From Streptomyces sp. V3I7 (GTDB lineage Bacteria; Actinomycetota; Actinomycetes; Streptomycetales; Streptomycetaceae), in contig NZ_JAUSZK010000001.1 of the NCBI RefSeq assembly GCF_030817495.1, positions 3,947,001 through 4,011,000 on the forward strand: a DNA stretch of 64,000 nt, read 5' to 3'. A program made the position numbers and the translations under genes. The notes under the pieces were generated by a model, which saw only the letters and a list, made by a program, of their open reading frames with translations, was not told the DNA's origin and ran no database searches. Of this stretch, positions 17,260 through 35,785 are shown piece after piece; position 1 is the stretch's first letter; each line of letters begins with the position of its first letter.

Positions 17260-17787
17260 TCAGGTGCCGGTGCCGTTGTACGGGCTGTTGATGAGGCAGA
17301 AGTCGATGCCTGTGAGGTCGTAGTACCCGGGTACGGAGACCCCGCTCGGGGCGTGGAGAAGCCCGTCCTGCGTAATGCCGTTGGGGAAGCCGGTGGTCGA
17401 GTCGTACCTGTACCGGTTGGCGCTGGGAGCGCTGTGGACGATGACCTGACGTGCGGCGATGGATCCGTCGATCGAGAAGGCGAACGTCTGGTTCGGGGGA
17501 TCGGTGACGTCGAGGGTGATATGCCCGACATCGAAGACGTCGTACGTGTTGTGGCCGGTCGGTACGCCGCCGCTCAGCGAGAACTCGATGTCGGTGTCGT
17601 CGGGGCAGACGGCCTCGTTGCTCACTTCCTCGGGCTGCACGTTGTTGGTGCTCGGGGCTCCCGCGTCGGCCGACGCGGGGCTGGCGGTGAAGCCGACCGC
17701 CAGTGCCGCGGTCAGGCCGGCGCCGAGCAGCCGGGCTCCCCATCTCACGCGGCGCGACTGTGTCCTTGCTCGGGTGGCTCCTCGCAT
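17260..17787 (-). CDS. Secreted protein of unknown function, two-cysteine type (paralogue A)
   Basis: This is a 175-aa protein. I chose ATG 17787 because GAAGGAG lies 8 nt upstream; a GTG three codons earlier would be too close to that site. An Arg-rich N-terminus is followed by the hydrophobic stretch [14 protein letters not shown] and a probable cleavage after ASA (about residue 40). The mature part has exactly two cysteines (VCPDD near the start and FCLIN near the end), probably disulfide-bonded, and looks beta-rich. It has the same layout as the gene at 19040-19534, including a Tyr-containing segment followed by a PNGI motif. The upstream DNA of the two genes is also similar. I do not recognise the family. 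Confidence 0.75.
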
Positions 17788-18125
17788 GGCGAGCACTCCT
17801 TCTTTCGTCGTTCTGTGGGTCTCTGGGTGCTCCGGGTGTGCCGGACGGTGCCCTCGCGGGCATCGCTGCCGTTGGCCGCGGCCGATTCAGTTCGAGTCGT
17901 GAACACGCGTCCGCATTCAGGCTTCCTCACATTTGCACGGCCGGAGCGCCTTCGCGCTGTACGGCTCCCTGTTCCTGGGCCGTTGGGATTTCATTGACGG
18001 CCGGAAAGGTGAAGCGGACGGCCGGGCTTGGGTGTTCGCGGCCGAATGGGCGTAGTGCTGAATACGCGCCATTACGATGCGCAATTGTCAGCCGTTCCGA
18101 CAGCACCGAATGAGGTACCGCACCG
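17788..18125. promoter_or_regulatory. Duplicated upstream region, copy A
   Basis: This 338-nt gap separates divergent genes. Positions about 17886-18014 resemble 19628-19755 block by block: TTCGAGT then TGAACA, TTGCACGG with CGGAGCGC, and GGCCGGAAAGGTGA. In both places the block starts about 95-100 nt upstream of a secreted-protein start, so it probably holds the shared promoter. No separate gene is visible. Confidence 0.55.
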
Positions 18126-18968
18126 ATGCAGGGGTACATCGAGGTCGACGCAGAGATGGAACGCGCGATGGCCCGGGTCACCGAGGCCTTTCCGTTCCCG
18201 GGGTATTTCGATCCGGCGGTGTCCGGACACGTCTCCATCGCCCGGACCGTCCAGCGGTTCCTGAAGCCGGGGTCGCGGATCCTGGACTTCGGGGCGGGCC
18301 CGGCCGACAAGACCGCGGTGCTCGCGGCGCTCGGCTACCAGTGCACGGCCGTCGACGACCTCCAGGACGAGTGGCACAAGCGGGGCGGCGCCCGCCGGTC
18401 GATCCTCGACTTCGCGGAGCGGATGGGCATCGAGTACCTCCCGCTCGACGGCGGCCCGCTGCCCAGCACCGGCAAGTTCGACCTGGTGATGCTGCACGAC
18501 GTACTGGAGCACCTGCACGACTCGCCGCGCGATCTGCTGAACGGCCTGCTGGAGCGGGTCCGCGACGGGGGCTATCTGTTCGTCACCGTGCCCAACCACG
18601 TCAACCTGCGCAAGCGCCTCGACGTCCTGCGCGGCCGGACCAGTCACCCGCAGTTCGAGCTGTACTACTGGTACCCCGGCAGCTGGCGCGGCCATGTGCG
18701 GGAGTACACCGAGGGCGACTGCCGGGCGCTGGCCAAGGCACTGGGGCTGAGGGTGCGGGAGGTGCGCGGCGCCCACCACATGCTCTGCAAGGTGCCGCCC
18801 CGGTTCCGGCGCGCGTATCTGGCCGTGAGCCGGTTCATCCCGTCGACCAGGGACACGTGGTCGATGGTCGCGCAGAAGCCACCGGGGTGGGTGGCGAAGG
18901 GGGAGCTGGACGACTCGGAGTTCCGTCAGCTGACGGGGCTGAAGTCCTGGGGCGAGCTGGCTCACTGA
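18126..18968 (+). CDS. SAM-dependent class I methyltransferase
   Basis: This 280-aa protein has the methyltransferase motif I ILDFGAGPADKT (about residues 55-66). An acidic post-I position (CTAVDDLQDEW), a motif IV-like FDLVMLHDVLEHLHD, and DGGYLFVTVPNHVNLRKR follow. This pattern is common in small-molecule and glycan methyltransferases annexed to polysaccharide clusters. It lies between the two secreted paralogues, which are both on the other strand. A sugar O-methyltransferase role in the polymer is a reasonable inference, but the substrate is not shown. Confidence 0.75.
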   Translation: MQGYIEVDAEMERAMARVTEAFPFPGYFDPAVSGHVSIARTVQRFLKPGSRILDFGAGPADKTAVLAALGYQCTAVDDLQDEWHKRGGARRSILDFAERMGIEYLPLDGGPLPSTGKFDLVMLHDVLEHLHDSPRDLLNGLLERVRDGGYLFVTVPNHVNLRKRLDVLRGRTSHPQFELYYWYPGSWRGHVREYTEGDCRALAKALGLRVREVRGAHHMLCKVPPRFRRAYLAVSRFIPSTRDTWSMVAQKPPGWVAKGELDDSEFRQLTGLKSWGELAH

Positions 18969-18982
18969 GCCTGGAATGCGGA

Positions 18983-19014: not shown

Positions 19015-19039
19015 ATCTGTGCCGTGGGGTCAGCTTCGC

Positions 19040-19534
19040 TCAGCTGCCGTTGGACGGAAGGAAGCAGAAGGTGACCTGGCTGATCGCGGGCTGGTTTCCA
19101 CCCATGTTGAGCGGAGCGATGAGGTTCTGGTCACTCGCAATGCCGTTGGGCCGGTAGTCGTAGAGGTTGGCGTTGTTCCCGCCCTTGACGAGCACCGCAC
19201 CGGCGACGAGGTCACCGCTGAAGTTGAAGTCCTCCAGGGTGAGCGCGCCGCCCTGCTCCTCGCTGAAGTCGACGTCGAGAGTTCCGGTCAGCGTCCCGTC
19301 GTCGCTGGTGATCGGAATGCCCGTCGCGTCCTGGGGGGCCACGTCGATGTCGCCCACGAAGCCGTTGATGTCGTCGCACGTCGGGTTCCCCGGGACGACG
19401 ACGGGGTCCACCACGGCCCGCTGCTGGGCCGCCGCGGGGCCGGCGAAGCCGAGCGCCAGCGCCGTGGTCAGGCCGAGGCCGACCGCAGCCAGCTTCGCTC
19501 CCCTGGACCTTGTCTTTCGAGTGGCTACTCGCAT
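19040..19534 (-). CDS. Secreted protein of unknown function, two-cysteine type (paralogue B)
   Basis: This 164-aa protein starts MRVATRKTRSRGAK, followed by the hydrophobic stretch LAAVGLGLTTALALGF and a probable cleavage after AAA (about residue 36). The mature part is acidic and has two cysteines (PTCDDI and TFCFLP). It contains VLVKGGNNANLYDY and ends near the second cysteine, as paralogue A does. GAAAGAAGGAG upstream matches the ribosome binding region of paralogue A. These look like small extracellular beta-sandwich proteins. No enzyme motif is visible. Confidence 0.75.
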   Translation of the reverse strand: MRVATRKTRSRGAKLAAVGLGLTTALALGFAGPAAAQQRAVVDPVVVPGNPTCDDINGFVGDIDVAPQDATGIPITSDDGTLTGTLDVDFSEEQGGALTLEDFNFSGDLVAGAVLVKGGNNANLYDYRPNGIASDQNLIAPLNMGGNQPAISQVTFCFLPSNGS

Positions 19535-19967: not shown

Positions 19968-21434
19968 ATGCGGCAGTCCACCAGCGGGGCGTCACGGCAG
20001 GCGGTATCCCTCGCGCCGGGCCGTGCGCCCTCGCGGTCAGGCCCGTGGGCCGGGCGACACGTGCCGGTCGCGGTCTGTGCCGACATCGCCGGAGTGGCCC
20101 TGCCGACCGCGGTGACGTTCCGGCTGATGGGCGAGCCCCACGGCGTACACCGCGCAGTCGTCATTGCCCTCGTCTGGCTGCTCGTACGCGTCGCCGCCAG
20201 GCGGTACGCCGCCTGGACCTGGGACGAAGGCGCCCCCGTCGGCCCGGTCGTCCGGGACTGGCTCGTGCTGTTCGGCGCGCTGGCCGCGCTGCACGCCGTG
20301 AGCGGTCTGGGGGGCACACCCGCCCTCGCCGCACTGTGCCCGGCGCTGTTCGTCACCGCGCTCTGCCGCAAGGCGGTCCATCACCGTCTGCTCGCAGCAC
20401 GCCGTAACGCCCGGGCGCTCCGCCGCGTCCTCGTCATCGGCGAGGCCGGGACGGTGGACGCCGTGGTCGGGCAGCTGGCCGAACGCACGGACCACGGGTA
20501 CGTGGTGGTCGGCGCGTGTGCCGTGGGGGAGGGCGAGGTGTTGTCCGGCGTACGGGTCTGCGCTCGGCTCGCGGACGCCGAGCCGGACGGGCTCGACGGG
20601 GACGCCGTCCCCGTACGGGACGCGGCCGAGACGCTCAACGCCGACCTGGTCTTCGTGGCCACGAGCCGCCACATGTCGGGCACCAGGCTCCGCCGGCTCT
20701 CCTGGGCGCTGCACGACCAGGGCTGCTCACTGATGGTGCTGCCCGGCATCACCGAGGTGGCCCGGCGCCGGGTCCGCCTCACCTCGGCGGCCGGGCTGAC
20801 CATGCTGCACATCGCCCCGCCCACCCGCGGCGGCCTGCCGGCGCTGCTCAAGGACGCCACGGACCGCGCGGGCGCGCTCCTGCTCCTGCTGGTGCTGGCC
20901 CCGCTGTGCGCGCTGCTGGCGCTCGCCGTGCGCGTCGGTTCACGCGGGCCCGTCCTCTACCGCCAGACGCGGGTCGGGCGGAACGGTGCGCCCTTCCCCA
21001 TGTGGAAGTTCCGCACCATGGTCGCGGACGCGGACCGGATGAAGAGCGACCTGGCGGCGGCGAACGAGCACGACGGGCTGATGTTCAAGATGCGCCAGGA
21101 CCCGCGGGTCACCCCGGTCGGCCGCCTGCTGCGCCGCTACTCGCTGGACGAGCTCCCCCAGCTGGTCAACGTGCTGCTCGGTCACATGTCGCTGGTCGGC
21201 CCGCGTCCGCCGCTGCCCGAGGAGGTGGCCCGGTACGACGACGTGGAAATGCGCCGGCTGGCCGTCAGGCCCGGCCTCACCGGTCTCTGGCAGGTGAGCG
21301 GACGGTCGGACCTGACCTGGCACGAGACCGTCTCCCTCGACCTGCGGTACGTGGACAACTGGTCGTGGTCCTGGGACGTGGCGGTCATGGCCCGCACCGT
21401 CCGCGCCGTCCTGGACGGCCGCGGCGCCTACTGA
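19968..21434 (+). CDS. Priming polyprenyl glycosylphosphotransferase (WcaJ/CpsE-like)
   Basis: This 488-aa membrane enzyme starts polysaccharide repeat-unit assembly by moving a sugar-1-phosphate from a nucleotide sugar to undecaprenyl phosphate. Hydrophobic segments occupy roughly the first 150 residues. A Rossmann-like central part begins ALRRVLVIGEAG, and one hydrophobic helix lies near residue 305. The C-terminal catalytic domain has WKFRTMVADADRM, RRYSLDELPQLVNVLLG and MSLVGPRPPLPEEV. GGGGAG supports the ATG. The gene ends 7 bp inside the opposing fcl-like gene. The sugar cannot be read from sequence; UDP-glucose or UDP-galactose is most common. Confidence 0.88.
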   Translation: MRQSTSGASRQAVSLAPGRAPSRSGPWAGRHVPVAVCADIAGVALPTAVTFRLMGEPHGVHRAVVIALVWLLVRVAARRYAAWTWDEGAPVGPVVRDWLVLFGALAALHAVSGLGGTPALAALCPALFVTALCRKAVHHRLLAARRNARALRRVLVIGEAGTVDAVVGQLAERTDHGYVVVGACAVGEGEVLSGVRVCARLADAEPDGLDGDAVPVRDAAETLNADLVFVATSRHMSGTRLRRLSWALHDQGCSLMVLPGITEVARRRVRLTSAAGLTMLHIAPPTRGGLPALLKDATDRAGALLLLLVLAPLCALLALAVRVGSRGPVLYRQTRVGRNGAPFPMWKFRTMVADADRMKSDLAAANEHDGLMFKMRQDPRVTPVGRLLRRYSLDELPQLVNVLLGHMSLVGPRPPLPEEVARYDDVEMRRLAVRPGLTGLWQVSGRSDLTWHETVSLDLRYVDNWSWSWDVAVMARTVRAVLDGRGAY

Positions 21435-22414
21435 GCCTCGACGAGCGGGCGGGATGCCGCCGCCCCGGACTCCTCCGCCTCCCGCCAGGACGCGTACGTC
21501 GAGGCGATCCCCTTCCGCAGGGCGATCCGCGGCCTCCAGCCGAGCTCGGTCATGAGGGAGACGTCCAGCAGCTTGCGCGGGGTCCCGTCCGGCTTGGTGG
21601 TGTCGAAGGTGATGCGGCCCTCGTAGCCGACGACCTCCCCGACGATCCTCGCCAGTTCGCGGATCGTGAGGTCCTCGCCGCAGCCGACGTTCACCGGCAG
21701 GCTGCCGTCGTACCGGCGCAGCAGGGTCACGCACGCGGCGGCGAGGTCGTCGACGTGCAGGAACTCGCGGCGCGGTGTGCCGCTTCCCCACAGGACCACC
21801 TCCTCGAGCCCGTCCCGGCGCGCTTCGTGGAAGCGGCGGACGAGCGCGGGGAGCACGTGCGAGGACTCGGGGTCGAAGTTGTCGCCGGGGCCGTAGAGAT
21901 TGGTCGGCATGGCGCAGACGTACGAGGCGTCGTACTGGCGCCGGTAGGACTGCACCTGGACGATGCCCGCGATCTTGGCGAGGGCGTACGGCTGGTTCGT
22001 CGGCTCCAGGGGGCCGGTGAGCAGGGACTCCTCCCGGATCGGCTGGGGTGCGAGCCGGGGGTAGATGCAGGACGACCCCAGGAACAGCAGCCGCCGCACC
22101 CCGGCGGAGTACGCCCCGGAGATCACGCTCAGCTGGATGCGGAGGTTGTCCTCCAGGAACTGCACCGGATAGGTGCTGTTGGCCATGATGCCGCCCACCC
22201 TGGCCGCGGCCAGGACGACGGCGTCGGGGCGGGCGTCGCGCAGAAAGGCGGCGGTGGCGGCCGGATCGCGGAGGTCCAGTTCGGTCCGGGTCCGGGTGAG
22301 GACCTCGTACCCGTCGGCCGTCAGGCGGCGGACCACCGCGGAGCCGACGAGTCCACGGTGACCGGCGACGTACACCCGGGCCGGCGGGGGGAGTAGATCT
22401 TCCATGCGGGGCAT
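21428..22414 (-). CDS. fcl: GDP-L-fucose synthase-like epimerase/reductase
   Basis: This 328-aa SDR is similar to GDP-4-keto-6-deoxy-D-mannose 3,5-epimerase/4-reductase. The NADP-binding motif GHRGLVGSAVV is at about residues 18-28. FLGSSCIYP (Ser114, Ser115, Cys116) and YALAK (Tyr143, Lys147) supply catalytic residues. MPTNLYGPGDNFD and SGTPRREFLHVDDLA are strongly conserved in the family. The partner GDP-mannose 4,6-dehydratase (gmd) is not in this window. It is on the opposite strand to its neighbours, converges on the priming transferase, and overlaps the start of the acetyltransferase. A second in-frame ATG at 22405 is possible. Confidence 0.88.
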   Translation of the reverse strand: MPRMEDLLPPPARVYVAGHRGLVGSAVVRRLTADGYEVLTRTRTELDLRDPAATAAFLRDARPDAVVLAAARVGGIMANSTYPVQFLEDNLRIQLSVISGAYSAGVRRLLFLGSSCIYPRLAPQPIREESLLTGPLEPTNQPYALAKIAGIVQVQSYRRQYDASYVCAMPTNLYGPGDNFDPESSHVLPALVRRFHEARRDGLEEVVLWGSGTPRREFLHVDDLAAACVTLLRRYDGSLPVNVGCGEDLTIRELARIVGEVVGYEGRITFDTTKPDGTPRKLLDVSLMTELGWRPRIALRKGIASTYASWREAEESGAAASRPLVEAQ

Positions 22415-23060
22415 TTTGCATCAAACACCCACAGATATGGCGATTTCTGCGCTCGCATCGCGGAAACTCGCACGGGTGAGAACTCCTGCGCGCACAGCCG
22501 CAGCCCCGCTCGGCCCGCTTGCCCCGGAGAGCGCCTCCGGGGCACGGCGCTCCTTGCGCGGTTTCACGGGGGCCGGTTACGACAAGGGGCGGCCCCTGCT
22601 CGTCCAGGCGACCTGGTTCGCCGTCCTGCACCTCGTCTTCGTCCAGTGGTGGTTCCCGGCCCGCTGGCGCCCGGTGCTGCTGCGGGCCTTCGGCGCGCGG
22701 ATCGGGGAGCGGGTGCTGATCCGGCACCGGGTGCGGGTGCACTGGCCCTGGCGGCTGGACGTCGGCGATGACGTGTGGATCGGCGAGGGCGCCTGGCTGC
22801 TGAACCTGGAGCCCATCACCCTCGGCAGCGACGTGTGCGTCTCGCAGGAGGCGCTGCTGTGCACGGGCAGCCACCAACGGCGCAGTCGCACCTTCGAGTT
22901 CGACAACGGGCCGATCCGCATCGAGCCCGGTGCCTGGGTCGCCGCACGGGCCGTCGTCCTGCGCGGCGTCACCGTCGGTGCCGGGGCGGTCGTGGGCGCC
23001 GCGGCCGTCGCCCGCCGTGACGTCGCGCCCGGCGAGGTCGTCACGGAGGGCGGGGCATGA
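22404..23060 (+). CDS. LbH-family O-acetyltransferase (WcaF-like)
   Basis: This protein of up to 218 aa has a left-handed beta-helix typical of hexapeptide acetyltransferases. Features include DVGDDVWIGEGAWLLNLEPI, LGSDVCVSQEALLCTGSH with the catalytic His, then IEPGAWVAARAVVLRGVTVG and GAGAVVGAAAVARRDV. The region before residue 60 is hydrophobic and basic, as in WcaF. Either ATG 22404 (GGGGGAG upstream) or ATG 22437 may be used. Its last 4 nt overlap the next glycosyltransferase, showing translational coupling. Likely role: O-acetylation of a polymer sugar. Confidence 0.8.
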   Translation: MRGILHQTPTDMAISALASRKLARVRTPARTAAAPLGPLAPESASGARRSLRGFTGAGYDKGRPLLVQATWFAVLHLVFVQWWFPARWRPVLLRAFGARIGERVLIRHRVRVHWPWRLDVGDDVWIGEGAWLLNLEPITLGSDVCVSQEALLCTGSHQRRSRTFEFDNGPIRIEPGAWVAARAVVLRGVTVGAGAVVGAAAVARRDVAPGEVVTEGGA

Positions 23061-24190
23061 GGCTCGTCCATGTGGTGACGCTCGTCAGCGACGACGGCGC
23101 GTACGGCGGCCCGACCAGCGTGGCAACCGGGCAGCTGGAGGAGTGCGCCGCCCGGGGCCACGACGTCACCCTCGTGTCCCTGTGGCGGGGCCGCTCCCCG
23201 GCGCCGCCCCGCATCGGCGCGGTCCCGCTGCGCACGCGCCCGGCGCGCTCCCTGCTCCCGGGACGGTTCACCGGGCTCATGCACCCGCTGCTCGTCCGCG
23301 ACCTGTGGCGGGCCGTCGGCGACGCCGACATGGTGCACGTCCACGCCGGGCGCGACCTCGTCTCCCTCACCGCGCTCGCCGTCGCCGTGCTGCGCCGCGC
23401 GCGGTTCGTGGTGCAGACGCACGGCATGGTCGAGCCGCGTCACGCGGCCGCCGTCCGCCTCTTCGACCGCCTCTACGTGCCGCTGCTGCGCCGGGCCCGC
23501 GGCTGCCTGGTGCTCACCGAGCGCGAGCGGCGCGCCCTGGCCGAGGTCGTCGGCCCGGACGGTCCGCCGCTGCTGACGCTGCCCAACGGGGTACGGCCGC
23601 GGTCCGACGGCGCCGCGGAGCACGGCCCGCGGGAGCCGGAGGTGCTCTTCCTCGCCCGGCTGCACCCGCGCAAGCGCCCCGAGGCCTTCGTCGAGATGGC
23701 CGCCCTGGTCCACGAGAAGGAACCCGAGGCGCGCTTCACCCTGCACGGCGCCGACGAGGGCTCGCTCGGGGAGGTGCGCCGGATCGTCGCCGAGCACGGG
23801 CTGGAGGGCGTCGTCACCTACGGCGGCGCGCTGGAGCACGCCGAGGCGGTACGGACGTACGCGCGCGCGGCCGTCTACGTACTCCCGGCCGTGGACGAGC
23901 CGTTCGGGATGACCCTGATCGAGGCCATGGCCGCGGGCACCCCCGTGGTGTGCACCGACGGCTGCGCCATCGCCGGCGAGCTGGCCCGGCGGGACGCGGC
24001 CGTGGTCACCGACGGCAGCCCGCGCGAGCTCGCCGACGCGGTGTGCGCGCTGCTGGCCGACGAGCGGCGGCGCACCGCCCTCGCGCGGGCCGGCCGGCGC
24101 GTCGTCGAGGAGACCTTTTCCCTTTCCGCGGTGACCGGCCGACTGGAGGAGATCTACCGGCGTATCGGTCGCGTCGGCTGTCCGGAGTAA
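23057..24190 (+). CDS. GT4-family glycosyltransferase
   Basis: This 377-aa GT-B protein has the N-terminal acceptor-domain pattern VVTLVSDDGAYGGPTSVATG and an internal VHVHAGRD. The C-terminal donor domain has EVLFLARLHPRKRPEAFVEM and the E-x7-E region reading DEPFGMTLIEAMAAGTPVV. It starts inside the stop codon of the acetyltransferase. A cytoplasmic enzyme extending the lipid-linked repeat unit is the expected role. Donor and acceptor are unknown. Confidence 0.85.
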   Translation: MRLVHVVTLVSDDGAYGGPTSVATGQLEECAARGHDVTLVSLWRGRSPAPPRIGAVPLRTRPARSLLPGRFTGLMHPLLVRDLWRAVGDADMVHVHAGRDLVSLTALAVAVLRRARFVVQTHGMVEPRHAAAVRLFDRLYVPLLRRARGCLVLTERERRALAEVVGPDGPPLLTLPNGVRPRSDGAAEHGPREPEVLFLARLHPRKRPEAFVEMAALVHEKEPEARFTLHGADEGSLGEVRRIVAEHGLEGVVTYGGALEHAEAVRTYARAAVYVLPAVDEPFGMTLIEAMAAGTPVVCTDGCAIAGELARRDAAVVTDGSPRELADAVCALLADERRRTALARAGRRVVEETFSLSAVTGRLEEIYRRIGRVGCPE

Positions 24191-24299: not shown

Positions 24300-25526
24300 A
24301 TGAACGAGCAGTTGTGTGGCGACCCGGAAAACAACCGGCCTGTCGCGGATGTGGTCGTCATCGGAGGATGCGGCCGGGTGGGACTTCCACTCGGAATCGC
24401 GCTCGCCGCCCGCGGAATGCTTTCGGTGACGCTCTACGACATCGACGCGGCGGCCGTCGAGAAGGTCAATCGCGGAGAGCTTCCGTTCCTCGAGAAGGGA
24501 GCCGCCGAACCGCTGCGCGCGAGCGTGCGCGACGGGCTGCTGCGCGCCACGACCGACGGCGCGAGCGTCGCCACGACGGACAACCTGATCGTCGTGGTGG
24601 GCACGCCCGTGGACGAGCACCTCAACCCCGACCTCGGCGCCGTCCCCCGGGCGCTGGAGCGCTGCGCGGAGCACCTGCGCGACGGCCAGCTCGTCATGCT
24701 CAGGAGCACCGTGCACCCCGGGGTCACCGCCCTGACCGAGCGCCTGCTGGAGCGGCTCGGCAAGAGTGTCGACGTGGCCTTCTGCCCGGAGCGGATCGCC
24801 GAGGGCGCCGCCATGACCGAGCTGTTCGAGCTGCCCCAGCTGGTGGCGGCGCGCTCGCAGCGGGCCGGCGACCGGGCGGAGAAGTTCTTCCGCACCCTCA
24901 CGGACAAGATCGTCCGGGTGGAGCCGGAGGAGGCCGAGCTCGCCAAGCTCTTCGCCAACACCTGGCGCTACATCAAGTTCGCGACCGTCAACCAGTTCTG
25001 GATGATGGCGAACGATTTCGGCCTCGACTTCGAGCGCATCCGCCAGGCGATCACGTACGAATACCCGCGCGCCGCCGACATGCCGGGCGCGGGATTCGCG
25101 GCCGGGCCCTGCCTCCTCAAGGACACGCTTCAACTGGCGGCGTTCACCGGGAACAATTTCGTGCTCGGGCACGCGGCCATGCTCGTCAACGAAGGTCTGC
25201 CGCTCTATCTCGTATCGCGTCTGGAACGCAGATTCACGCTCGCGGAGACGCGGGTCGGCGTGCTCGGCATGGGATTCAAGGCCGGCAGCGACGACGTACG
25301 GGAAAGCCTGTCGTTCAAGCTGCGCCGCATTCTGATGGCCAAGGCGCGGGAGACCCTCTGTACCGACCCGTACGTCAGCGACGCGCGCTTGGTGGAACTG
25401 AGCGAGGTCATGGACCGGGCCGACGTCCTGGTCATCGCCACACCGCACCGTGAGTACCGGGATCTCGCCACGGAGAAACCGGTCATCGACCTCTGGGGCA
25501 TCAGCGGACGAGGCGTCCGGGTCTGA
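24300..25526 (+). CDS. Nucleotide-sugar dehydrogenase (UDP-Glc/GDP-Man dehydrogenase family)
   Basis: This 408-aa enzyme converts the C6 hydroxyl of a nucleotide sugar to a carboxylate in two NAD-dependent steps. Seen are the Rossmann motif VVVIGGCGRVGLPLG (residues about 17-31), VVVGTPVDEHLNPDL, FCPERIAEG, LFANTWRYIKFATVNQFW and FAAGPCLLKDT with the catalytic Cys271. VGVLGMGFKAGSDDVRES opens the C-terminal domain. It resembles the WecC/VipA branch more than plain UDP-glucose dehydrogenase. It would give the polymer an acidic uronic-acid-type sugar. An intergenic gap of 109 nt precedes it, and a 63-nt gap separates it from the epimerase. Confidence 0.88.
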   Translation: MNEQLCGDPENNRPVADVVVIGGCGRVGLPLGIALAARGMLSVTLYDIDAAAVEKVNRGELPFLEKGAAEPLRASVRDGLLRATTDGASVATTDNLIVVVGTPVDEHLNPDLGAVPRALERCAEHLRDGQLVMLRSTVHPGVTALTERLLERLGKSVDVAFCPERIAEGAAMTELFELPQLVAARSQRAGDRAEKFFRTLTDKIVRVEPEEAELAKLFANTWRYIKFATVNQFWMMANDFGLDFERIRQAITYEYPRAADMPGAGFAAGPCLLKDTLQLAAFTGNNFVLGHAAMLVNEGLPLYLVSRLERRFTLAETRVGVLGMGFKAGSDDVRESLSFKLRRILMAKARETLCTDPYVSDARLVELSEVMDRADVLVIATPHREYRDLATEKPVIDLWGISGRGVRV

Positions 25527-25589
25527 CCAGCAGCAGTACGGCGAACGCCATCCCGCAATCCGCACCAGCCCGCACCAGAAAGGTCCCCC

Positions 25590-26612
25590 GTGAAGGTTCT
25601 CGTCACCGGCGCGTCCGGTCTGATCGGCAGTTACCTCGTCCGGGAGCTGCTCCACCAGGGCCACACCGTGGTGGGCCTGGACAACTTCTCCAAGTACGGC
25701 GAGGCCCGCCGCAGCACGGTCCAGGATCCGGCTTACCGGCTGGTCGAGGGAGACGCCCGCGACACCGACCTGCTCGCCGGCCTGCTGGCCGACTGCGATC
25801 ACTTCGTCGCCGGGGCGGCCATGATCGGCGGCATCTCCTACTTCCACACCTACGCCTACGACCTCCTCGCGACCAACGAGCGGATCACCGCCGCCGCCTG
25901 CGACGCGGCGATCCGGGTCCACGGCGAGGGCCCGCTGCGGAAGGTGACGTACCTCAGCTCCTCGATGGTGTACGAGAACACCGACACCTGGCCGTCACGG
26001 GAGGGCGACGAGCGGCGCATCCCGCCGCCCTCGTCCTCGTACGGCTTCCAGAAGCTCGCGGTGGAGTACTTCGCGCGGGCGGCGTACGACCAGTACGGGC
26101 TCCCGTTCACCATCGTGCGGCCGTTCAACTGCGTGGACGTCGGCGAGGAGCGGACGGTCGGGCAGAGCGAGGAGCGCTCCGGCGACCTCAAGATCAGCAT
26201 GTCGCACGTCGTCCCCGACCTGGTGCAGAAGGTACTGAAGGGGCAGGATCCGCTGCACATCCTCGGCAGCGGCGCCCAGGTGCGGCACTTCACCTACGGC
26301 GGAGACCTGGCCCGCGGCATCTGCGCGGCGATCTTCCACCCGGCCGCGCTCAACGAGGACTTCAATCTGGCGAGCGCCGAGCCGACGACCGTGCTGGAGC
26401 TGGCGGAGCGGATCTGGCACAAGATCAAGGGGCCCGACGAGCCGTTCCGGCACACCACCGACCTGCCCTTCGAGCACGATGTCCAGCGTCGGACCCCCGA
26501 TGTCTCCAAGGCCAGGGACGTCCTCGGCTTCACCGCGACGACCACGCTGGACGAGATCCTCGACAAGGTCGTCCCGTGGGTGCGCCGGGCGATCGCCGAA
26601 GGCCGGCTCTGA
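25590..26612 (+). CDS. NAD-dependent sugar epimerase/dehydratase (extended SDR)
   Basis: This 340-aa extended SDR starts at GTG: MKVLVTGASGLIGSYLVREL. It carries the nucleotide-binding TGASGLIG motif, LSSSMVYENTDTWPS, the active-site YGFQK (Tyr and Lys spaced as YxxxK), IVRPFNCVDVGE, and a C-terminal substrate domain ending DEILDKVVPWVRRAI. Likely roles are epimerisation or dehydration of a nucleotide sugar made by the preceding dehydrogenase. The exact reaction is not decided by sequence. It is 2 nt from the next gene, so the pair is cotranscribed. Confidence 0.82.
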   Translation: MKVLVTGASGLIGSYLVRELLHQGHTVVGLDNFSKYGEARRSTVQDPAYRLVEGDARDTDLLAGLLADCDHFVAGAAMIGGISYFHTYAYDLLATNERITAAACDAAIRVHGEGPLRKVTYLSSSMVYENTDTWPSREGDERRIPPPSSSYGFQKLAVEYFARAAYDQYGLPFTIVRPFNCVDVGEERTVGQSEERSGDLKISMSHVVPDLVQKVLKGQDPLHILGSGAQVRHFTYGGDLARGICAAIFHPAALNEDFNLASAEPTTVLELAERIWHKIKGPDEPFRHTTDLPFEHDVQRRTPDVSKARDVLGFTATTTLDEILDKVVPWVRRAIAEGRL

Positions 26613-27319: not shown

Positions 27320-27334
27320 CACCTCGTACGTACC

Positions 27335-28696: not shown

Positions 28697-30223
28697 ATGT
28701 CTGTTAAGCGAGATATAAATCGGTCACTACAGATTCATTCCGTTTCTGGATTCGATGAGGCGATGCAGGTGCGGGACGGTCAGGTCCGGTGCATGGCTGC
28801 CGTGTGGGTCTGGGCCCTGGCGCTCCTCCTCCTTCTGCCGGGTCTGGTTCTGCAGACCCCCGACACGCGCTTCGGGGTGGTCCTCGCCGCGCAGTGCGTC
28901 GTCGTGGCGCACGCCGGCGGCGCGCTGACCCGCGTGCTCACCGATACCTCGGTACGGCTCGTCGCCCTGGGTTTCTGGCTCTTCGCCTACGTCTGGCTCG
29001 GGCTGGCACCGCTCGCCATGCTCGCCACCGACAGCTACCCCCTCGGCTATCGCACCGGTGCCACCACCGCGCTCGCCGCCGTCGCCCTGACCGAACTCGG
29101 ACTCCTCGCCTACAGCGCGGGGAGTGTCCTCGCGGCCCGGCGTACGGGCGGCCGGTCGGCCGTCCTCGAACCGCTGCTGTCGCGCAGGATCCCACCCCTG
29201 CCGGTCCTGCTGCTGTGCGTGCTGGCGCTCGTCCTCGCGGTCGTGCTGATCCCCCAGCAGGAGGGCGGCTGGCACGCCTTCTTCGTCAGCAGGCAGGCCG
29301 TACGGCAGTCCGGCGCAGCGTCGGACGTGACGCGCGTGATGCGCGTCTGGGCTCTCTCCGTCCCCGCCTTCTGGGGTCTGGTCGGCCTCGTCCTTCTGGC
29401 CCGCTGGGCCAAGGGCGACCCGTGGCTGCGCCGGATCCGCTGGGCGCTGCTGCCGCTCCTCGTCACCGTCAACGTGGTCGTCAACAACCCGATCAGCAGG
29501 CCGCGTTTCTGGGCCGGGACCGTCCTCGCGGTCCTGCTGTTCTGCTGGCCCCGGTTCAACAACCCGCGCGCCTTCCGCATCACCGCCGGGGCTCTCACGG
29601 TCGTCCTGCTGCTGGTCTTTCCGTACGCCGACTACTTCCGCTACGACAAGCGGGAGGCCGTCCATGTGGTGTCGGTGACGGAACAGCTCAGCACGAACAT
29701 GGACTACGACGCCTTCCAGCAGATGCAGACCGGCATCGACGCCGCCAGGGAAACCGGACTGTCGCCGTCGTCCGCACTCGGCGTGGCCCTGTTCATGGTG
29801 CCGCGCTCCATCTGGGCCGACAAACCCGACGACACAGCCATCAAGCTCGCCCGGTACGCGGGCTACAAGTTCGACAACCTCTCGGCGCCGATGTGGATCG
29901 AGAGCTACCTGTGGGGCGGTCCGCCCTGTGTGATCGCCGTCTTCTGTCTGATGGGCGCGGCCGGACGCCGTATGGACGACATCCGGGAACGGCTGCGGGC
30001 CAAGGGGGCGGTCACGCTGGCCGTCCCGCTGGTCCCGGCCTTCGCCTTCTACCAGCTGATCCTCCTGCGCGGCAGCCTCATGGCGATCACCGGCCCGCTG
30101 CTGATGCTCATGACCGTTCCGCTGTTCATCACCGTCCGAGCCGCGCGTGCCGCCCGCTCGTCCCGGCGTCCCGCGTCGGCGCAGCCGCCCGCGACCGCGG
30201 GCCACGCACCCCTTCCCGGATAA
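28697..30223 (+). CDS. Polysaccharide repeat-unit polymerase (Wzy-like)
   Basis: This is a highly hydrophobic 508-aa protein with a dozen or more predicted membrane segments and a long extracellular loop in the C-terminal half (about 310-390). This is the topology of O-antigen/capsule Wzy polymerases, which otherwise share little sequence. The context is decisive: a Wzz-like co-polymerase follows 12 nt later, then a Wzx flippase. The first 22 codons from ATG 28697 use codons rare in this genome, so ATG 28763 may be the true start. SAVLEPLLSRRIPPLP and a region reading MVPRSIWADKPDDTAIKLAR are visible. Confidence 0.78.
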   Translation: MSVKRDINRSLQIHSVSGFDEAMQVRDGQVRCMAAVWVWALALLLLLPGLVLQTPDTRFGVVLAAQCVVVAHAGGALTRVLTDTSVRLVALGFWLFAYVWLGLAPLAMLATDSYPLGYRTGATTALAAVALTELGLLAYSAGSVLAARRTGGRSAVLEPLLSRRIPPLPVLLLCVLALVLAVVLIPQQEGGWHAFFVSRQAVRQSGAASDVTRVMRVWALSVPAFWGLVGLVLLARWAKGDPWLRRIRWALLPLLVTVNVVVNNPISRPRFWAGTVLAVLLFCWPRFNNPRAFRITAGALTVVLLLVFPYADYFRYDKREAVHVVSVTEQLSTNMDYDAFQQMQTGIDAARETGLSPSSALGVALFMVPRSIWADKPDDTAIKLARYAGYKFDNLSAPMWIESYLWGGPPCVIAVFCLMGAAGRRMDDIRERLRAKGAVTLAVPLVPAFAFYQLILLRGSLMAITGPLLMLMTVPLFITVRAARAARSSRRPASAQPPATAGHAPLPG

Positions 30224-30235: not shown

Positions 30236-31999
30236 GTGACCAGCCCCGCAAGCCTTGATGAGCGGTACGAGCGGTACGACGCGCCGGACCAGCTCCGCGA
30301 CCAGGTGCGCCGACTGTTCAGGTACCGCGCGATCCTCGCGCTCGGCATCGGCCTGGGGCTGCTCGCCGGCCTGCTGCTGGTGCTGTTCCGCGCGAACAGT
30401 TACGCCGCCACCTGCGATGTGCTCGTCCGCACGAAGGCGGACCCCTCGTTCGGCACGTCCGGTGACAACCAGGTGGCCATGGGCACGGAGCGGCGCATCG
30501 CGCTCAGCCCCGCCGTCGCGGCCCGTGCGGCCAAGGAGCTGCACGAGCCGTCGTCCCGGGCCGAGAGACTGCTGGACGGCCTGACCGTCACGAACCCGCC
30601 GAACACGCAGGTGCTCCGGTTCGAGTACACGGCGAGCAGCGCGAAGCGGGCGGCCCGGGTGAGCAACGTGTTCGCGCAGGCCTACCTCACCGATCGCCAG
30701 GACAGGACCAGGGCCCTGGTGGCGCGGACGGTGAGCGGACTGGATCAGCAGATCGCGGGCCTGAATCAGCGGATCGCCGCGGCGGACGCGACGGACGAGA
30801 AGAGCGACAAGGAGAAGGCCGACGACAAGGCCTCCACCGACAAGTCCGCCGAGGACAAGGCCGCGACCGCGAGCCTGCAGGGCCAGGTCGAGGCGCTGAA
30901 CAAGCGGATCTCGGAGATCAGGTCCTTCGACACCAGCGGCGACCTGGTCGTGCGCCGGGCCGAGCCGCCCGCGCACTCATCGGGACCGGGCCCCGTCTGG
31001 CTGTTCGGCCTCGGGCTGCTGAGCGGGCTCCTCGTGGGCATCGTGGTCGCCTGGCTGCGGTCCGTACTCGAACCGCGTGTCTGCTCGGTCGGCGAGGTCC
31101 AAGAGGCACTGGGCGCACCGGTGTTGGGCCTGCTCCCAGACGCAGGCCCGGGCAAGGGCACCGGCGAGGACGGCGACCTGCTGGAGGTCGGCCGGATCGC
31201 CGGCTCCCGCGCCGAGGCGTACCGGGCCCTCGCCTACCGGCTGCGCCAGGACGAGGACCGTACGGCCCACGGCGCATTCCTGGTCGTGGCGCCGAAGCAG
31301 GACAAGGAGGCCGCGGCCACCGCGGTGAACCTCGCCGCCGCGTTCGCCGAGGCCGGCGACGACGTGCTGCTGCTGGACGCCACCGGGAGCGTGCCCGGCC
31401 TCGCGGCGCGACTGCCGCTGGCCACCGGGGACGCCACCGGGGACGCCACCGGGGACGCCACTGAGGATGTCGCCGCCGACTCCGCCCCGGCCGCCGTCCC
31501 CGAGGGCCGGGTCGTCGTCGACGCGGGTACGGCAGGGCGGTTCCTGCTCTTCCCCGACCGGCGCGAAGGCGGCGCCATCATCGCCGGCAACGACGATGAC
31601 GCGACAGCATCCGTGACGCGCGCCCTGCCGAGCGGCGATGGTGGGATCTCGGCGTTCGTCATCGCACCGCCGCTCCTCGACCGCCCCGACGGTCTCGCCG
31701 TCGCCCCCCGCGTCGACGGTGTGCTCGTGGTGGGCGCACTGGAGCGCACGCGGCGGGACGACCTCAAGCGGCTGCGGGAACTGATCGGTTGCTCGGGCGG
31801 ACGCATCGTGGGCGCCGTGCTCGAGACCGGCGCACGGCAGGGCCTGTTCGACCGGACCTGGGGCAACGGCCGTGCGCCCCGGCTGGAGATCTCGGACCCG
31901 GTCACGAAACCCGCTGAGACGGCGTCGGCACCCGAGCCGCAGGCAGAGGCGCTGTCGCAGCAGGGTTCGCAGGACGACTCCCTCACCGCCTCCCGATGA
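30236..31999 (+). CDS. Wzz-like chain-length regulator fused to a degenerate BY-kinase domain
   Basis: This 587-aa protein has a first membrane helix near residues 32-52 and a second near 255-275 flanking a periplasm-like coiled-coil region rich in Lys, Asp and Ala. That is the Wzz/CapA arrangement. The C-terminal half resembles a BY-kinase. The Walker A place reads PKQDKEAAATA (Pro353, Lys357): the lysine stays but the Gly-Lys-Ser/Thr pattern is lost. The Walker A' strand DVLLLDATG keeps Asp381. No tyrosine cluster is present at the C-terminus. I infer a pseudokinase scaffold that helps set chain length. It contains four 12-bp tandem repeats (31421-31468). AGGAGAGG supports the GTG start, and its stop overlaps the Wzx start. 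Confidence 0.78.
   Translation: MTSPASLDERYERYDAPDQLRDQVRRLFRYRAILALGIGLGLLAGLLLVLFRANSYAATCDVLVRTKADPSFGTSGDNQVAMGTERRIALSPAVAARAAKELHEPSSRAERLLDGLTVTNPPNTQVLRFEYTASSAKRAARVSNVFAQAYLTDRQDRTRALVARTVSGLDQQIAGLNQRIAAADATDEKSDKEKADDKASTDKSAEDKAATASLQGQVEALNKRISEIRSFDTSGDLVVRRAEPPAHSSGPGPVWLFGLGLLSGLLVGIVVAWLRSVLEPRVCSVGEVQEALGAPVLGLLPDAGPGKGTGEDGDLLEVGRIAGSRAEAYRALAYRLRQDEDRTAHGAFLVVAPKQDKEAAATAVNLAAAFAEAGDDVLLLDATGSVPGLAARLPLATGDATGDATGDATEDVAADSAPAAVPEGRVVVDAGTAGRFLLFPDRREGGAIIAGNDDDATASVTRALPSGDGGISAFVIAPPLLDRPDGLAVAPRVDGVLVVGALERTRRDDLKRLRELIGCSGGRIVGAVLETGARQGLFDRTWGNGRAPRLEISDPVTKPAETASAPEPQAEALSQQGSQDDSLTASR
31421..31468 (+). repeat. 12-bp tandem repeats inside the co-polymerase gene
   Basis: GCCACCGGGGAC occurs three times exactly, and a fourth copy is degenerate. 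In frame this codes for ATGD repeats in a linker after the pseudo-Walker domain. Copy number can change without a frameshift. Confidence 0.9.
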
Positions 32000-33540
32000 C
32001 CACCACCTCCCAAGCCGTGCCCGCCCCTGCGGCGGCGCCCGTCCCGAGCGGGGTCGCAGCCACCGCGCGGGGCGGATGGTGGGGTTTCCTGGGGTCCGCG
32101 ATCAACGCCGTCTTCGGCTACCTCCTCGTCACCCTGGTCACCCGCGCCCTGGGGGCGCACGGGTCGGGCGCGGTGTTCACCGGCGTCGCCGCCTTCACCA
32201 TCCTCAGCAACACCTGCAAGCTCGGCGCCGACACCGGGCTGGTGCGCTTCGTCTCCCGTGACATGGCCACCGACGGCGGCCATCGCGTGGGCGCGCTGCT
32301 GCGCAGCGCCGTCGTGCCGGGAACCGCGGCGAGCACCGCGGCCGCCGCCCTGCTGTTCCTGTCCCCGTCGACCGCGACCTCCCTGCTGCCGACGCTCGCA
32401 CCGGACGAGGCCGTCACCCTGGTCCGGCTCTTCGCCCTGTTCCTCCCCGTTGCCACGGTCACCCTGATCCTGCTCGGCGCCACCCAGGGGTACGGGACGG
32501 TGGTGCCGTTCGTCGGTGTCGAACAGGTCGTCAAGCCGGTCCTGCGCGTGCTCATCGCCGTACCTGTGGTGCTGCTGGCTCCCGGTGTGCTGAACCTGGC
32601 CGCCGCCTGGCTGGTCCCGTCCCTGGCCGGGGCGCTCATCGCCTGGGTCGCGCTGCGCCGGTGCCACCGCGCGAGCCGGCCGCGTACGGCGTCGCCCGAC
32701 GTGGCCGCCGCGCGGCGGGGGTTCTGGGCGTTCGCCGCGCCCCGGGCCATCTCCGCCATCTTCGACATCAGCTCGGTCTGGGTGGGCGTGATCCTGCTGT
32801 CGTGCCTGGCCACGAGCGAGGAAGCGGGCATCTACACCGCTGTCAGCCGGGTCATCGTCGCGGCGACGCTGTTCCAGCTCGCCGTCCGGCTCGCCTTCGC
32901 CCCGGAGATCAGCCGTCTGCTGGCCGTGGACGACATCCCGCAGGCCTGCCATCTGCACCGCATCTCGACGCGCTGGATCGTGCTGTTCTCCTGGCCTCTG
33001 TTCGTGCTCCTCGGGAGTTTCCCGGGCACGGTGCTGTCCCTCTTCGGGCCGGAGTTCGTCCAGGGATCGAACGCGCTGGTCCTGCTCTGTGTCGCCTCCG
33101 CGATCAACGTCGGTGTCGGCAACGCCCAGACCGTGCTGCTCATGGCCGGCAAGAGCTCCTGGCATCTGGGGGCCACCGCCGCCGCGTTCGCGGTGCAGCT
33201 GGGCGTCGGCATCGTCGCCGTACCCCGGATCGGCGTCATGGGGGCGGCCCTTTCCTGGGGCGCGGCCATCGTCGTGGAAAACCTCATGGCGGCCGTTCTG
33301 GTACGGCGTCATCCGGGATTCACGACCGTGGACCGCGGATATCTCGCCGCGACGGGTGTGGGTTTGTTTCTCACCGCGGTTCTGATTATCCCGGCCAGAA
33401 TTCTGGCGGGCGACACCGCTATCGGACTCGCCGCCGGAATTGTCTTGGGAATCGGCGTACTGGGTATAGGTTTGAGCCGTTTTCCTGCCGTGCTGGGAGT
33501 GCGCGAACTAATTGACATCCTCCGTAAACGGACCGCGTGA
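31996..33540 (+). CDS. Polysaccharide flippase (Wzx-like)
   Basis: This 514-aa integral membrane protein belongs to the MVF/MATE-related oligosaccharide flippase group. About 12-14 hydrophobic segments follow GGWWGFLGSAINAVFGYLLV near the N-terminus, and a charged loop precedes RRGFWAFAAPRAISAIFD. It would move lipid-linked repeat units across the membrane. It starts in the last codon of the Wzz-like gene (ATGA overlap), so Wzy, Wzz and Wzx form one translationally coupled unit. Codons in the last 60 residues are less GC-rich than those before. Confidence 0.82.
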   Translation: MTTTSQAVPAPAAAPVPSGVAATARGGWWGFLGSAINAVFGYLLVTLVTRALGAHGSGAVFTGVAAFTILSNTCKLGADTGLVRFVSRDMATDGGHRVGALLRSAVVPGTAASTAAAALLFLSPSTATSLLPTLAPDEAVTLVRLFALFLPVATVTLILLGATQGYGTVVPFVGVEQVVKPVLRVLIAVPVVLLAPGVLNLAAAWLVPSLAGALIAWVALRRCHRASRPRTASPDVAAARRGFWAFAAPRAISAIFDISSVWVGVILLSCLATSEEAGIYTAVSRVIVAATLFQLAVRLAFAPEISRLLAVDDIPQACHLHRISTRWIVLFSWPLFVLLGSFPGTVLSLFGPEFVQGSNALVLLCVASAINVGVGNAQTVLLMAGKSSWHLGATAAAFAVQLGVGIVAVPRIGVMGAALSWGAAIVVENLMAAVLVRRHPGFTTVDRGYLAATGVGLFLTAVLIIPARILAGDTAIGLAAGIVLGIGVLGIGLSRFPAVLGVRELIDILRKRTA

Positions 33541-33663: not shown

Positions 33664-35265
33664 ATGCGCCTGAGAAATCACACGACGAGGGTTGTCACCA
33701 CAGCGTCCACCGCGGCCCTCCTCGCAGCCGCCTCGCTCGTCACCGCCGCCACCTCGGCCGCGAGCGGCCAGAAGACCACCGGCAAGACCCTCACCGCCGA
33801 CCCGCTGTCGACCTGGCAGACGGACGGGATCGTCTGGTCGGTGGAGTACGCGCGCGGAGTCGTGTACGTCGGCGGTACCTTCGGCAGCGTCCGCCCGCCG
33901 GGCGCGCGACCGGGCGAGCGGGAGGTCGCCCGCAGAAACTTCGCCGCGTTCGACGCCTCCACCGGCGAACTGCTGCCGTGTGCGCACTCGTTCACGGGCA
34001 TCGGTGACACCGTACGAGCGCTCAAGGCGTCCCCCGACGGCAAGAAGCTCTACGTCGGCGGCTCGTTCAGCAAGGTCGACGACAGCGGCGCGTACAGCGC
34101 GGCCGCGCTCAACACGTCCGACTGCTCGCTGCGCAAGGACTTCCGCCCCGGCGCCTCGGCGACCGTCCGGGCCATCGAGACCACGGGCGACACGGTCTAC
34201 ATGGGCGGGGACTTCACGCTCATCGACAACAAGACCAGGAACCGGATCGCGGCCTTCAAGCCGAACGGTGCACTGCGGCCGTTCAAGGCGGACCTCGATC
34301 GCGGCGTACGGGACATCCTGGCGGCGACCGATCATGGAAAGGTCCTCGTCGGCGGCGACTTCCGGCACGTCAACGGGAAGGAGGAGCGGTCGCTGATCGC
34401 CCTGGATCCCAAGACGGGCGAGCCGGTGACCTCCTTCCCGGACTGGATTCCGCCCCGTTCGGCGGTGAAGACACTGGCGCGGGACGGCGACAAATTCTAT
34501 CTGGGCGCCGAAGGCACCGGAACGGGCATTTTCGACGGCCGTATCGCCGGGCGTCTGTCCGACGGCAGCATGATCTGGAAGGACACCTGCCAGGGCGCCA
34601 CCCAGGCCGTTCTCGTGTACAAGGGAATCCTTTACAGCGGTTCCCACGCGCACTACTGCGGTGTCACCCCGGGTGGCTTCCCCGAGGGGCGCCGTCGGCA
34701 TTTCCTGGCCCAATCGGCCGACGACATGCACATCCTGCACTGGTTCCCCGACACCGACGACGGACTCGGTGAGGGAAACGGCCCCCGCTCGCTGGTGATG
34801 GCCGACGGAATCCTGTGGGCGGGCGGCGAGTTCACCATGGTCAACGGCAAACCCCAGCAGAGCCTGACGCGCTTCGGCGCCGGCCCCGACGTCGGAGCCC
34901 CGGAGGGCGCGCCCAGGCTCACGGTCGCCGACACCCGCGACGGCCGCGTCACCCTCACCTGGCATGCCGCCTGGGACAGGGACGACGCGGAGCTGACGTA
35001 CATGCTCTACCGGGACGGTGAGCTCGTGGACAAGCAGAAGCAGCGGTCGGCCGAATGGGACCGGCCGGACATGAAGTACACGGACACCGTCGCTCCAGGC
35101 TCACGGCACCGCTACACGATCTCCGTCACCGACGGCAAGAACACGGCACCCCTCTCGAAGCCGCTCGAAGTGACCGCGGTCGCCGCGAAGCGGGAGCTCG
35201 GGGATCTGGGAGAAATCCCAGCGCTGGGAGCGCTGGGAGCGCTGGGAGAACTGAGGCAGTGGTGA
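33664..35265 (+). CDS. Secreted beta-propeller protein with C-terminal Fn3 domain
   Basis: This 533-aa protein has a signal peptide (basic MRLRNHTTR, hydrophobic core to about residue 30, likely cleavage in the AATSAAS region). Repeated blade motifs are GVVYVGGTFGSV, KLYVGGSFSKVDD, TVYMGGDFTLIDN, KVLVGGDFRHVNG and LWAGGEFTMVNG, which resemble delta-60/PQQ-like propeller repeats. A cysteine pair at about 320-340 follows. The last 110 residues have the fibronectin type III pattern (APRLTVADTRDGRVTLTWHA ... YMLYRDGELV ... GSRHRYTISV). It is followed by GLA-rich ALGALGALG encoded by 9-bp repeats. It may bind or organise the exported polymer. No catalytic motif is seen. Confidence 0.72.
   Translation: MRLRNHTTRVVTTASTAALLAAASLVTAATSAASGQKTTGKTLTADPLSTWQTDGIVWSVEYARGVVYVGGTFGSVRPPGARPGEREVARRNFAAFDASTGELLPCAHSFTGIGDTVRALKASPDGKKLYVGGSFSKVDDSGAYSAAALNTSDCSLRKDFRPGASATVRAIETTGDTVYMGGDFTLIDNKTRNRIAAFKPNGALRPFKADLDRGVRDILAATDHGKVLVGGDFRHVNGKEERSLIALDPKTGEPVTSFPDWIPPRSAVKTLARDGDKFYLGAEGTGTGIFDGRIAGRLSDGSMIWKDTCQGATQAVLVYKGILYSGSHAHYCGVTPGGFPEGRRRHFLAQSADDMHILHWFPDTDDGLGEGNGPRSLVMADGILWAGGEFTMVNGKPQQSLTRFGAGPDVGAPEGAPRLTVADTRDGRVTLTWHAAWDRDDAELTYMLYRDGELVDKQKQRSAEWDRPDMKYTDTVAPGSRHRYTISVTDGKNTAPLSKPLEVTAVAAKRELGDLGEIPALGALGALGELRQW
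35221..35247 (+). repeat. 9-bp tandem repeats at the propeller gene 3' end
   Basis: Three exact GCGCTGGGA copies encode ALG repeats in the tail before the coupled GTGA junction. Confidence 0.85.
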
Positions 35266-35720
35266 CGGGGGAACGACTCGGCTACGCGCCGGGGGTCTTC
35301 GACCTCTTCCACGTGGGCCATCTCAACATCCTGCGCCGTGCCAGCACGCACTGCGACCGGCTCATCGCGGGCGTCTGCTCCGACGACCTGGTGGTCCGCC
35401 TGAAGGGCAGGCCACCGGTCATCCCGCTCGCCGAGCGACTGGAGATCGTCCGCAGCGTCCGCTACGTCGACGACACCTACGTGGCGACGGTGGACGACAA
35501 GATCGAGATCTGGAAGGAAGTCGGCTTCGACGTCATCTTCAAGGGCGACGACTGGCTCGGCACCGACCTGTGGAAGAACCTCGAGGGCGAGTTCTCCAAG
35601 GTCGACGTGGAGGTCGTCTTCTTCCCCTATACGACCCACACATCGAGCACGCTGCTGCGCCGTGCGCTCTCGCTGCGGACTCCCGCTCCGATTCTTCCGC
35701 AGCGCGATCTCTCCGCGTAG
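35262..35720 (+). CDS. Cytidylyltransferase, TagD/glycerol-3-phosphate type
   Basis: This 152-aa protein has the GYAPGVFDLFHVGHLNILRR nucleotidyltransferase signature, including HVGH at residues 17-20. It continues with LAERLEIVRSVRYVDDT, GFDVIFKGDDWLGT and the TTHTSST segment that parallels the ISTT motif of TagD. These enzymes make a CDP-alcohol such as CDP-glycerol from CTP and an alcohol phosphate. The GTG start overlaps the stop of the secreted propeller protein (GTGA). With the CDP-alcohol phosphotransferase at 26615 the island would both make and use the CDP-activated alcohol. Glycerol is favoured by family. Another small polyol is possible. Confidence 0.82.
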   Translation: MTGERLGYAPGVFDLFHVGHLNILRRASTHCDRLIAGVCSDDLVVRLKGRPPVIPLAERLEIVRSVRYVDDTYVATVDDKIEIWKEVGFDVIFKGDDWLGTDLWKNLEGEFSKVDVEVVFFPYTTHTSSTLLRRALSLRTPAPILPQRDLSA

Positions 35721-35739
35721 CGTCGTCCGACGCTCGGGG

Positions 35740-35785
35740 GAGCCGCGCCGTCGCCGTACCGCGTACGGCGACGGCGCGGCTCGCT
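35740..35785 (+). terminator. Terminator of the polysaccharide island
   Basis: A perfect 20-bp stem (35740-35759 with 35763-35782) and a 3-nt loop close the operon. No T-run follows, but in Streptomyces such hairpins often terminate efficiently. It isolates the island from rpsJ. Confidence 0.75.

Follow-up and report, generated by a model that had tools for sequence, protein, structure and literature searches.

In Proteus mirabilis O18, the genes for LicC and LicD, which provide a phosphocholine decoration, adjoin wzx, and the passages of PMC8027243 that treat them propose that decoration takes place before flipping. Here we describe a comparable arrangement in a 64,000-nucleotide stretch of a Streptomyces genome (positions 3947001-4011000 of a 6.49-Mb contig; hereafter the window). 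In it, a Wzx/Wzy polysaccharide island between tuf and rpsJ carries a gene for a cytidine diphosphate (CDP)-alcohol phosphotransferase, which we call CDPOH (26615-27319, + strand, 234 amino acids, taken from the ATG at 26615), and a gene for a TagD-like cytidylyltransferase, which we call the CTP gene (35262-35720, + strand, 152 amino acids, taken from the GTG at 35262) and its product the CTP enzyme, as distinct from the nucleotide cytidine triphosphate. A first-pass annotation had proposed this island with both genes, and the present analysis confirms it. The LicC/LicD arrangement is the nearest known logic: as here, a cytidylyltransferase and a phosphotransferase lie in a Wzx/Wzy cluster, and decoration is proposed to precede flipping. 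P. mirabilis O18 also encodes a choline kinase and a permease, neither of which was seen among the genes scanned here, and no island gene matched a LicD-family transferase at E 0.001. LicD and LicC represent protein families different from those of CDPOH and the CTP enzyme.

Other systems share parts of this arrangement. The Kennedy pathway (PCYT2 or CCT with CHPT1 or CEPT1) likewise combines an HxGH cytidylyltransferase fold with a CDP-alcohol phosphotransferase (CDP-AP) fold bearing GExxDHxxD, but its enzymes and the cholinephosphotransferase of Treponema denticola act on diacylglycerol, whereas the genes described here lie in a polysaccharide cluster. The TagD/TagF teichoic acid route of Bacillus and Staphylococcus shares the TagD fold and GDDW with the CTP enzyme; unlike in that route, no island gene gave a TagF-like match, and the CTP enzyme lacks RTEGISTT and scores below the TagD cut-off. 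IPCT-DIPPS of Archaeoglobus and AF2299 combine cytidylyltransferase function with a six-helix CDP-AP, and DIPPS uses a soluble donor, CDP-inositol, which we count as a likeness; IPCT-DIPPS has another cytidylyltransferase fold and a soluble acceptor, unlike here.

Within the genus, the ebosin (ste) cluster of Streptomyces sp. 139 is described, in the parts of PMC11078827, PMC8902715 and PMC4347597 that deal with its genes, as containing a fucosyltransferase (ste7) and a Wzz (ste8), numbered consecutively, and nucleotide-sugar genes. Compared by description rather than by sequence, it is, like the present island, a Streptomyces exopolysaccharide cluster with Wzz and nucleotide-sugar genes. Its Ste17 is termed a glucose-1-phosphate cytidylyltransferase in PMC8902715. 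Searches among openly licensed papers for CDP-alcohol genes or cytidylyltransferases in connection with Streptomyces, undecaprenyl, capsule or exopolysaccharide brought up no description of the pair. A passage of PMC13118837 describes a different Streptomyces CDP-alcohol gene, next to tagGH and araM, and the main text of an Actinoplanes exopolysaccharide paper (PMC13390465) has no words beginning with CDP or cytidyl. CpgD of Caulobacter was set aside as a model, as homology between CpgD and TagD was not found according to the relevant passage of PMC12275187.

Co-inheritance of the pair with itself and with a flippase

Little is known of the surface polysaccharides of Streptomyces, and the pair is present in 62 of the 150 genomes sampled from the genus: CDPOH was found in 62 and the CTP gene in exactly those 62. 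These counts exclude genomes with weak matches only, namely 35 of the 97 that matched CDPOH at 1e-10 (mostly through paralogs of ~600 amino acids) and 20 of the 82 that matched the CTP gene (E above 1e-15); one CDPOH broken across two contigs (genome G121) was counted once. The two genes are adjacent and convergent in 55 carriers, 6-11 kb apart in 6 and 3.5 Mb apart in one (G012), a genome that has a second CTP-gene copy elsewhere. A sample of 396 genomes from the phylum, which overlaps the genus sample, contained CDPOH in 8 and the CTP gene in 10, with both in all 8. In two of its genomes from other families (G356 and G398) the pair is ~6 and 12 kb apart, next to priming-transferase, Wzx and propeller genes. 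Among 80 named loci, the best 80 of 481 and drawn from many genera with two search patterns, the CTP gene lies within 10 kb of CDPOH in 70, and a whole-genome search recovered it in the other 10 genomes also. Eight of these loci, from Amycolatopsis, Saccharopolyspora, Actinopolyspora, Haloechinothrix, Kribbella and one metagenome-assembled genome, have the pair adjacent and co-directional.

A CDPOH tree built quickly from 83 rows, from which G121 was excluded and on which arrangement labels were assigned by hand, requires at least 8 changes of arrangement, and fewer when the starred branches alone are considered (convergent 3, separated 4, co-directional 1). The window CDPOH falls in a five-member clade (SH-aLRT 100), in all of which the genes are separated. 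Many of the genomes are related, so that the counts are not independent, and hypergeometric values calculated from them are not to be taken as probabilities. That the two genes belong together, as first proposed, holds up: co-inheritance is near-strict, in 62 of 62 carriers in the genus and 80 of 80 named genomes. One might suppose instead that the two genes hitch-hike with the island and have unrelated functions, as the 7.9 kb and five genes between them in the window (a glycosyltransferase, Wzy, Wzz, Wzx and a beta-propeller) could suggest. The persistence of the CTP gene in 62/62 genus carriers, 80/80 named genomes and 8/8 phylum CDPOH carriers (overlapping samples), despite repeated rearrangements, already contradicts this explanation, to which we attach almost no probability.

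The pair is also tied to the flippase. One of two Wzx types was recognised in 59 of 65 loci examined; of the 6 others, 4 are short stretches or reach a contig end and 2 come from G012. A whole-genome search at E 1e-40 found type B Wzx in 45 and type A in 14 of the 150 genomes. All 59 of these genomes carry the pair, and neither type was found in any of the 88 pairless genomes of the genus. For this comparison Wzx counts alone were used, since queries with GT4 glycosyltransferases can pick up unrelated GT4 enzymes, and a 35% type A match in G121, which has type B, was left uncounted. Because 59 of 59 flippase genomes have the pair and 0 of 88 pairless genomes have the flippase, the pair is no optional extra of this export system. 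The observations support its belonging to the Wzx/Wzy polysaccharide system, as the annotation had suggested. The link was to be given up if the two genes occurred apart from the island in relatives; CDPOH does so in one of 62 carriers (G012, at 3.5 Mb), where both genes are still present. The ebosin cluster mentioned above could be a type B cluster.

Motifs of the two enzymes and the reaction they may carry out

CDPOH has the superfamily motif D1xxD2GxxAR...GxxxD3xxxD4 (DSADGQLAR...GEWTDHVVD in the window), a PF01066 match of 28.0 bits (cut-off 22) and, in a structural model, the CDP-AP fold. Its second half, GEWTDHVVD, conforms to the class II signature G2ExxD3HxxD4. GExxDHxxD is the signature of choline and ethanolamine phosphotransferases, which take a soluble CDP-alcohol donor and a lipid acceptor. 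In a set drawn from whole-protein searches, 59 of 62 relatives have both E and H and 3 have A and H, H thus being present in all 62 motif-bearing family members. Both residues are missing from 10 of 10 paralogs encoded in the same genome, two of which were missed by the motif pattern and read by eye. The named loci give 77 with E and H and 3 with A and H, a biased count since one of the two finding patterns overlaps the signature. The motif fits a soluble CDP-alcohol donor, in line with the original proposal. The accompanying remark that members of this family ordinarily act on lipids overlooks the choline and ethanolamine phosphotransferases. Since these routinely move a phospho-alcohol from soluble donors, the route, which had been called unusual, is so in its setting and supposed acceptor and not in its chemistry. 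A scan of viral contigs for a viral origin of CDPOH returned 14 pattern matches and no CDPOH relatives.

The CTP enzyme has the TagD-type HxGH cytidylyltransferase fold (PF01467, 72.7 bits, cut-off 21), with HxGH in 64/64 and GDDW in 63/64 family members, and K48, R59, K80, W84 and GDDW each retained by 78 or more of 82 sequences. It scores 54.6 bits against the TagD equivalog TIGR01518 (cut-off 165.4), and the third TagD motif, RTEGISTT, is replaced by YTxHTSS in 62/64. TagD residues that we take to be R63, W74 and R113 have no clear counterparts. As the CTP enzyme neither reaches the TagD cut-off nor has the third of the TagD motifs, glycerol, which had been named along with related alcohols, is not established by these sequences. 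The best NCBIfam score of the CTP enzyme, 69.3 bits, is to the heptose-1-phosphate adenylyltransferase domain. This would suit an adenylyltransferase or sugar-phosphate nucleotidyltransferase (HldE/HldC-like), the pair then serving an activated sugar rather than an alcohol, and Ste17 of the ebosin cluster, should it be a homolog, would point the same way; both this score and that to TagD are far below cut-off, and we regard such a role as very improbable. In three loci (L170, L223 and L231, ~9500-11200) CDPOH is flanked by two cytidylyltransferases, the upstream one lacking GDDW and the next motif, which may be a pseudoenzyme partner. In the Kribbella locus L231, CDPOH overlaps the degenerate upstream copy by 4 bp and the intact copy begins no more than about a dozen bases downstream.

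The genes, motifs, predicted folds and co-inheritance of the pair with itself and with a flippase form the observed basis for a reading to which we give slightly better than even chances: that the lipid-linked repeat of an exopolysaccharide is tagged with a phospho-alcohol by the two enzymes before export. The CTP enzyme would join the nucleotide, probably CTP, and an alcohol phosphate (X-P) into CDP-X, where X may be glycerol, ethanolamine or inositol. On the cytoplasmic face, CDPOH would then transfer phospho-X from CDP-X to the undecaprenyl-PP-linked oligosaccharide, at one of its hydroxyls, by means of a GExxDHxxD active site resembling that of choline and ethanolamine phosphotransferases. 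The cognate Wzx would flip the tagged unit, and Wzy and Wzz would polymerise it; the order of steps and the glycan-lipid acceptor are our proposals, and diacylglycerol is the other candidate acceptor. If this is correct, bacteria have a further route to phosphorylated glycans besides TagF- and LicD-type enzymes, the CDP-alcohol phosphotransferase family extends to glycan acceptors, and the loss of either of two named genes should remove phospho-alcohol from the surface polymer. More tentatively, and at somewhat less than an even chance, a whole family of membrane CDP-alcohol phosphotransferases, common across Actinomycetota, may act not on lipids but on undecaprenyl-PP-linked glycans through a eukaryote-like (E)xxDH base, the phospho-tag being an obligate export determinant read by the cognate Wzx.

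Several observations weigh against tagging before export. Ala replaces Glu (position 106) in 3 of the 4 nearest relatives of the window CDPOH, G097 being of this type, and because all 3 Ala variants are confined to the window's own clade, we marked this reading down slightly. One phylum genome, G409, has the CTP gene and no CDPOH family member and is a real exception; in the second CTP-only genome, G233, the protein is a 41% match with a TagD-like third motif. G008, excluded from the counts, is a possible exception: its assembly, in 740 contigs, gave a 46% partial CDPOH match in a 109-amino-acid frame and none to the CTP gene.

Chief among the other explanations is a lipid pathway of the Kennedy type in the service of the polysaccharide, in which CDPOH gives phospho-X to diacylglycerol or another lipid and the special phospholipid so made anchors the polysaccharide or is required for its assembly. 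By sequence, the solved structures that the pair matches best are of Kennedy-pathway enzymes, though the CDPOH match is weak, passages of PMC10182977 tie GExxDHxxD of CHPT1 to the diacylglycerol acceptor, and T. denticola has a CDP-choline:diacylglycerol phosphotransferase according to the relevant part of PMC6805115. However, CDPOH, with ~six membrane helices by hydrophobicity and model, is without the extra C-terminal helices of CHPT1 and CEPT1. The genome has 10 further PF01066 places, so that with glycerol, ethanolamine or inositol as X the lipid would probably be made already by other CDP-alcohol enzymes. The link to particular flippases (59/59) better suits a modified export substrate, and we hold the lipid pathway to be unlikely, with an appreciable residual chance.

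Alternatively, CDPOH could be an ordinary class I enzyme acting on CDP-diacylglycerol, with CDP-X going to another, unrecognised transferase of the cluster. Its best NCBIfam matches are archaetidylinositol-phosphate synthase (43.9 bits, cut-off 180) and phosphatidylinositol-phosphate (PIP) synthase (26.3 bits, cut-off 170), both far below cut-off; class I and DIPPS chains head its fold-match list, and Glu is missing from three near relatives. Yet H is retained throughout the family while E and H are both absent from all ten paralogs, no TagF- or LicD-type matches occur among the island genes, and the near-obligate pairing with a cytidylyltransferase would be left unexplained, making this explanation improbable. 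A protein of 654 amino acids encoded near 5.84 Mb of the same genome (locus L239, 8004-9968) fuses a CDP-alcohol phosphotransferase to DUF5941; ~600-amino-acid proteins like it are the source of the weak CDPOH matches in many genomes of the genus.

The island and its insertion site

The island lies between tuf (15965-17158, +; TIGR00485, 739.9 bits) and rpsJ (36318-36626, +; NF001861, 170.5 bits), which are 19.2 kb apart. Across the genus tuf was found in 145 and rpsJ in 149 genomes, with both on one contig in 127; with G010 (1.7 Mb apart) excluded, the gap in the remaining 126 is 0.41 kb at its shortest and 35.9 kb at its longest, with a median of 7.4 kb. Comparison of this gap among relatives, as had been suggested, thus reveals a highly variable site. 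By coordinates the pair is inside it in 6 of 62 carriers (G000, G007, G049, G067, G097 and G104). Because the gap is variable and the pair is there in just these six, its placement is incidental.

Perfect or near-perfect hairpins lie 3' of tuf (17202-17239, 18-nt perfect arms, folding z -6.9), of CDPOH (27332-27371, z -7.1) and of the CTP gene (35740-35782, 20-nt perfect arms, z -6.5). Strong terminators had been predicted on both sides of the island. The outer hairpins agree with this, but a scan of the region for T-tailed terminators, a method poorly suited to actinobacteria, gave 6 sites against 5.5 in shuffled sequences and found only the middle one of the three, so that the term terminator is fair but not proven. 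A sigma-70 promoter scan found no promoter.

The presence of a priming transferase, glycosyltransferases, Wzx, Wzy and Wzz marks a Wzx/Wzy-dependent exopolysaccharide cluster. The priming polyprenyl glycosylphosphotransferase (19968-21434, +; TIGR03025, 363.5 bits, cut-off 295.55; PF02397) is followed by a GDP-L-fucose synthase-like short-chain dehydrogenase/reductase (SDR; 21428-22414, -; NF047922, 473.6 bits, below the cut-off of 500), a WcaF-like left-handed beta-helix acetyltransferase (22404-23060, +; NF007797, 184.7 bits, below 192), the GT4 glycosyltransferase GT4a (23057-24190, +; PF00534, 95.8 bits), a nucleotide-sugar dehydrogenase (24300-25526, +; TIGR03026, 267 bits, above cut-off) and an SDR epimerase/dehydratase (25590-26612, +; PF01370, 145 bits). 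Between CDPOH and the CTP gene lie the WcaI-like glycosyltransferase GT4b (27394-28650, -; NF007640, 255.5 bits, below 276), a Wzy-like membrane protein (28697-30223, +), a Wzz-like chain-length protein (30236-31999, +; TIGR01006, 42.1 bits, cut-off 296), the type A Wzx (31996-33540, +; PF01943, 56.1 bits) and a secreted DUF5122 beta-propeller (33664-35265, +; PF17164, 38.7 bits), whose stop codon overlaps the likely CTP-gene start. The Wzy-like protein, for which neither Pfam nor NCBIfam gave a match at E 0.001, is so called from its position and many hydrophobic segments, and is kept in type A clusters.

The beta-propeller was absent from the first-pass annotation, as were an S-adenosylmethionine (SAM) methyltransferase (18126-18968, +; PF13489, 58.8 bits) and two small secreted proteins (17260-17796, -, with no Pfam match, and 19040-19534, -). 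The latter are kin by pairwise alignment, belong to an unknown family and have homologs near tuf in island-bearing relatives. The GDP-fucose synthase-like gene is present in a genome without a GDP-mannose 4,6-dehydratase (GMD) above cut-off (best 33.5 against 415 bits); a related cluster (L071) has a GDP-mannose dehydratase-family gene. The window's nucleotide-sugar dehydrogenase and SDR (24300-26612) are seldom found in relatives, occurring at 3 of the 60 named loci from Streptomyces, and the sugar gene content looks as if one sugar had been replaced by another. Secreted-looking right-handed beta-helix/pectate-lyase-like proteins recur near the pair (L190, 11147-12919; L231, 6475-8208; L075, 10874-12361), and in other families very large beta-propeller-like proteins are found near it.
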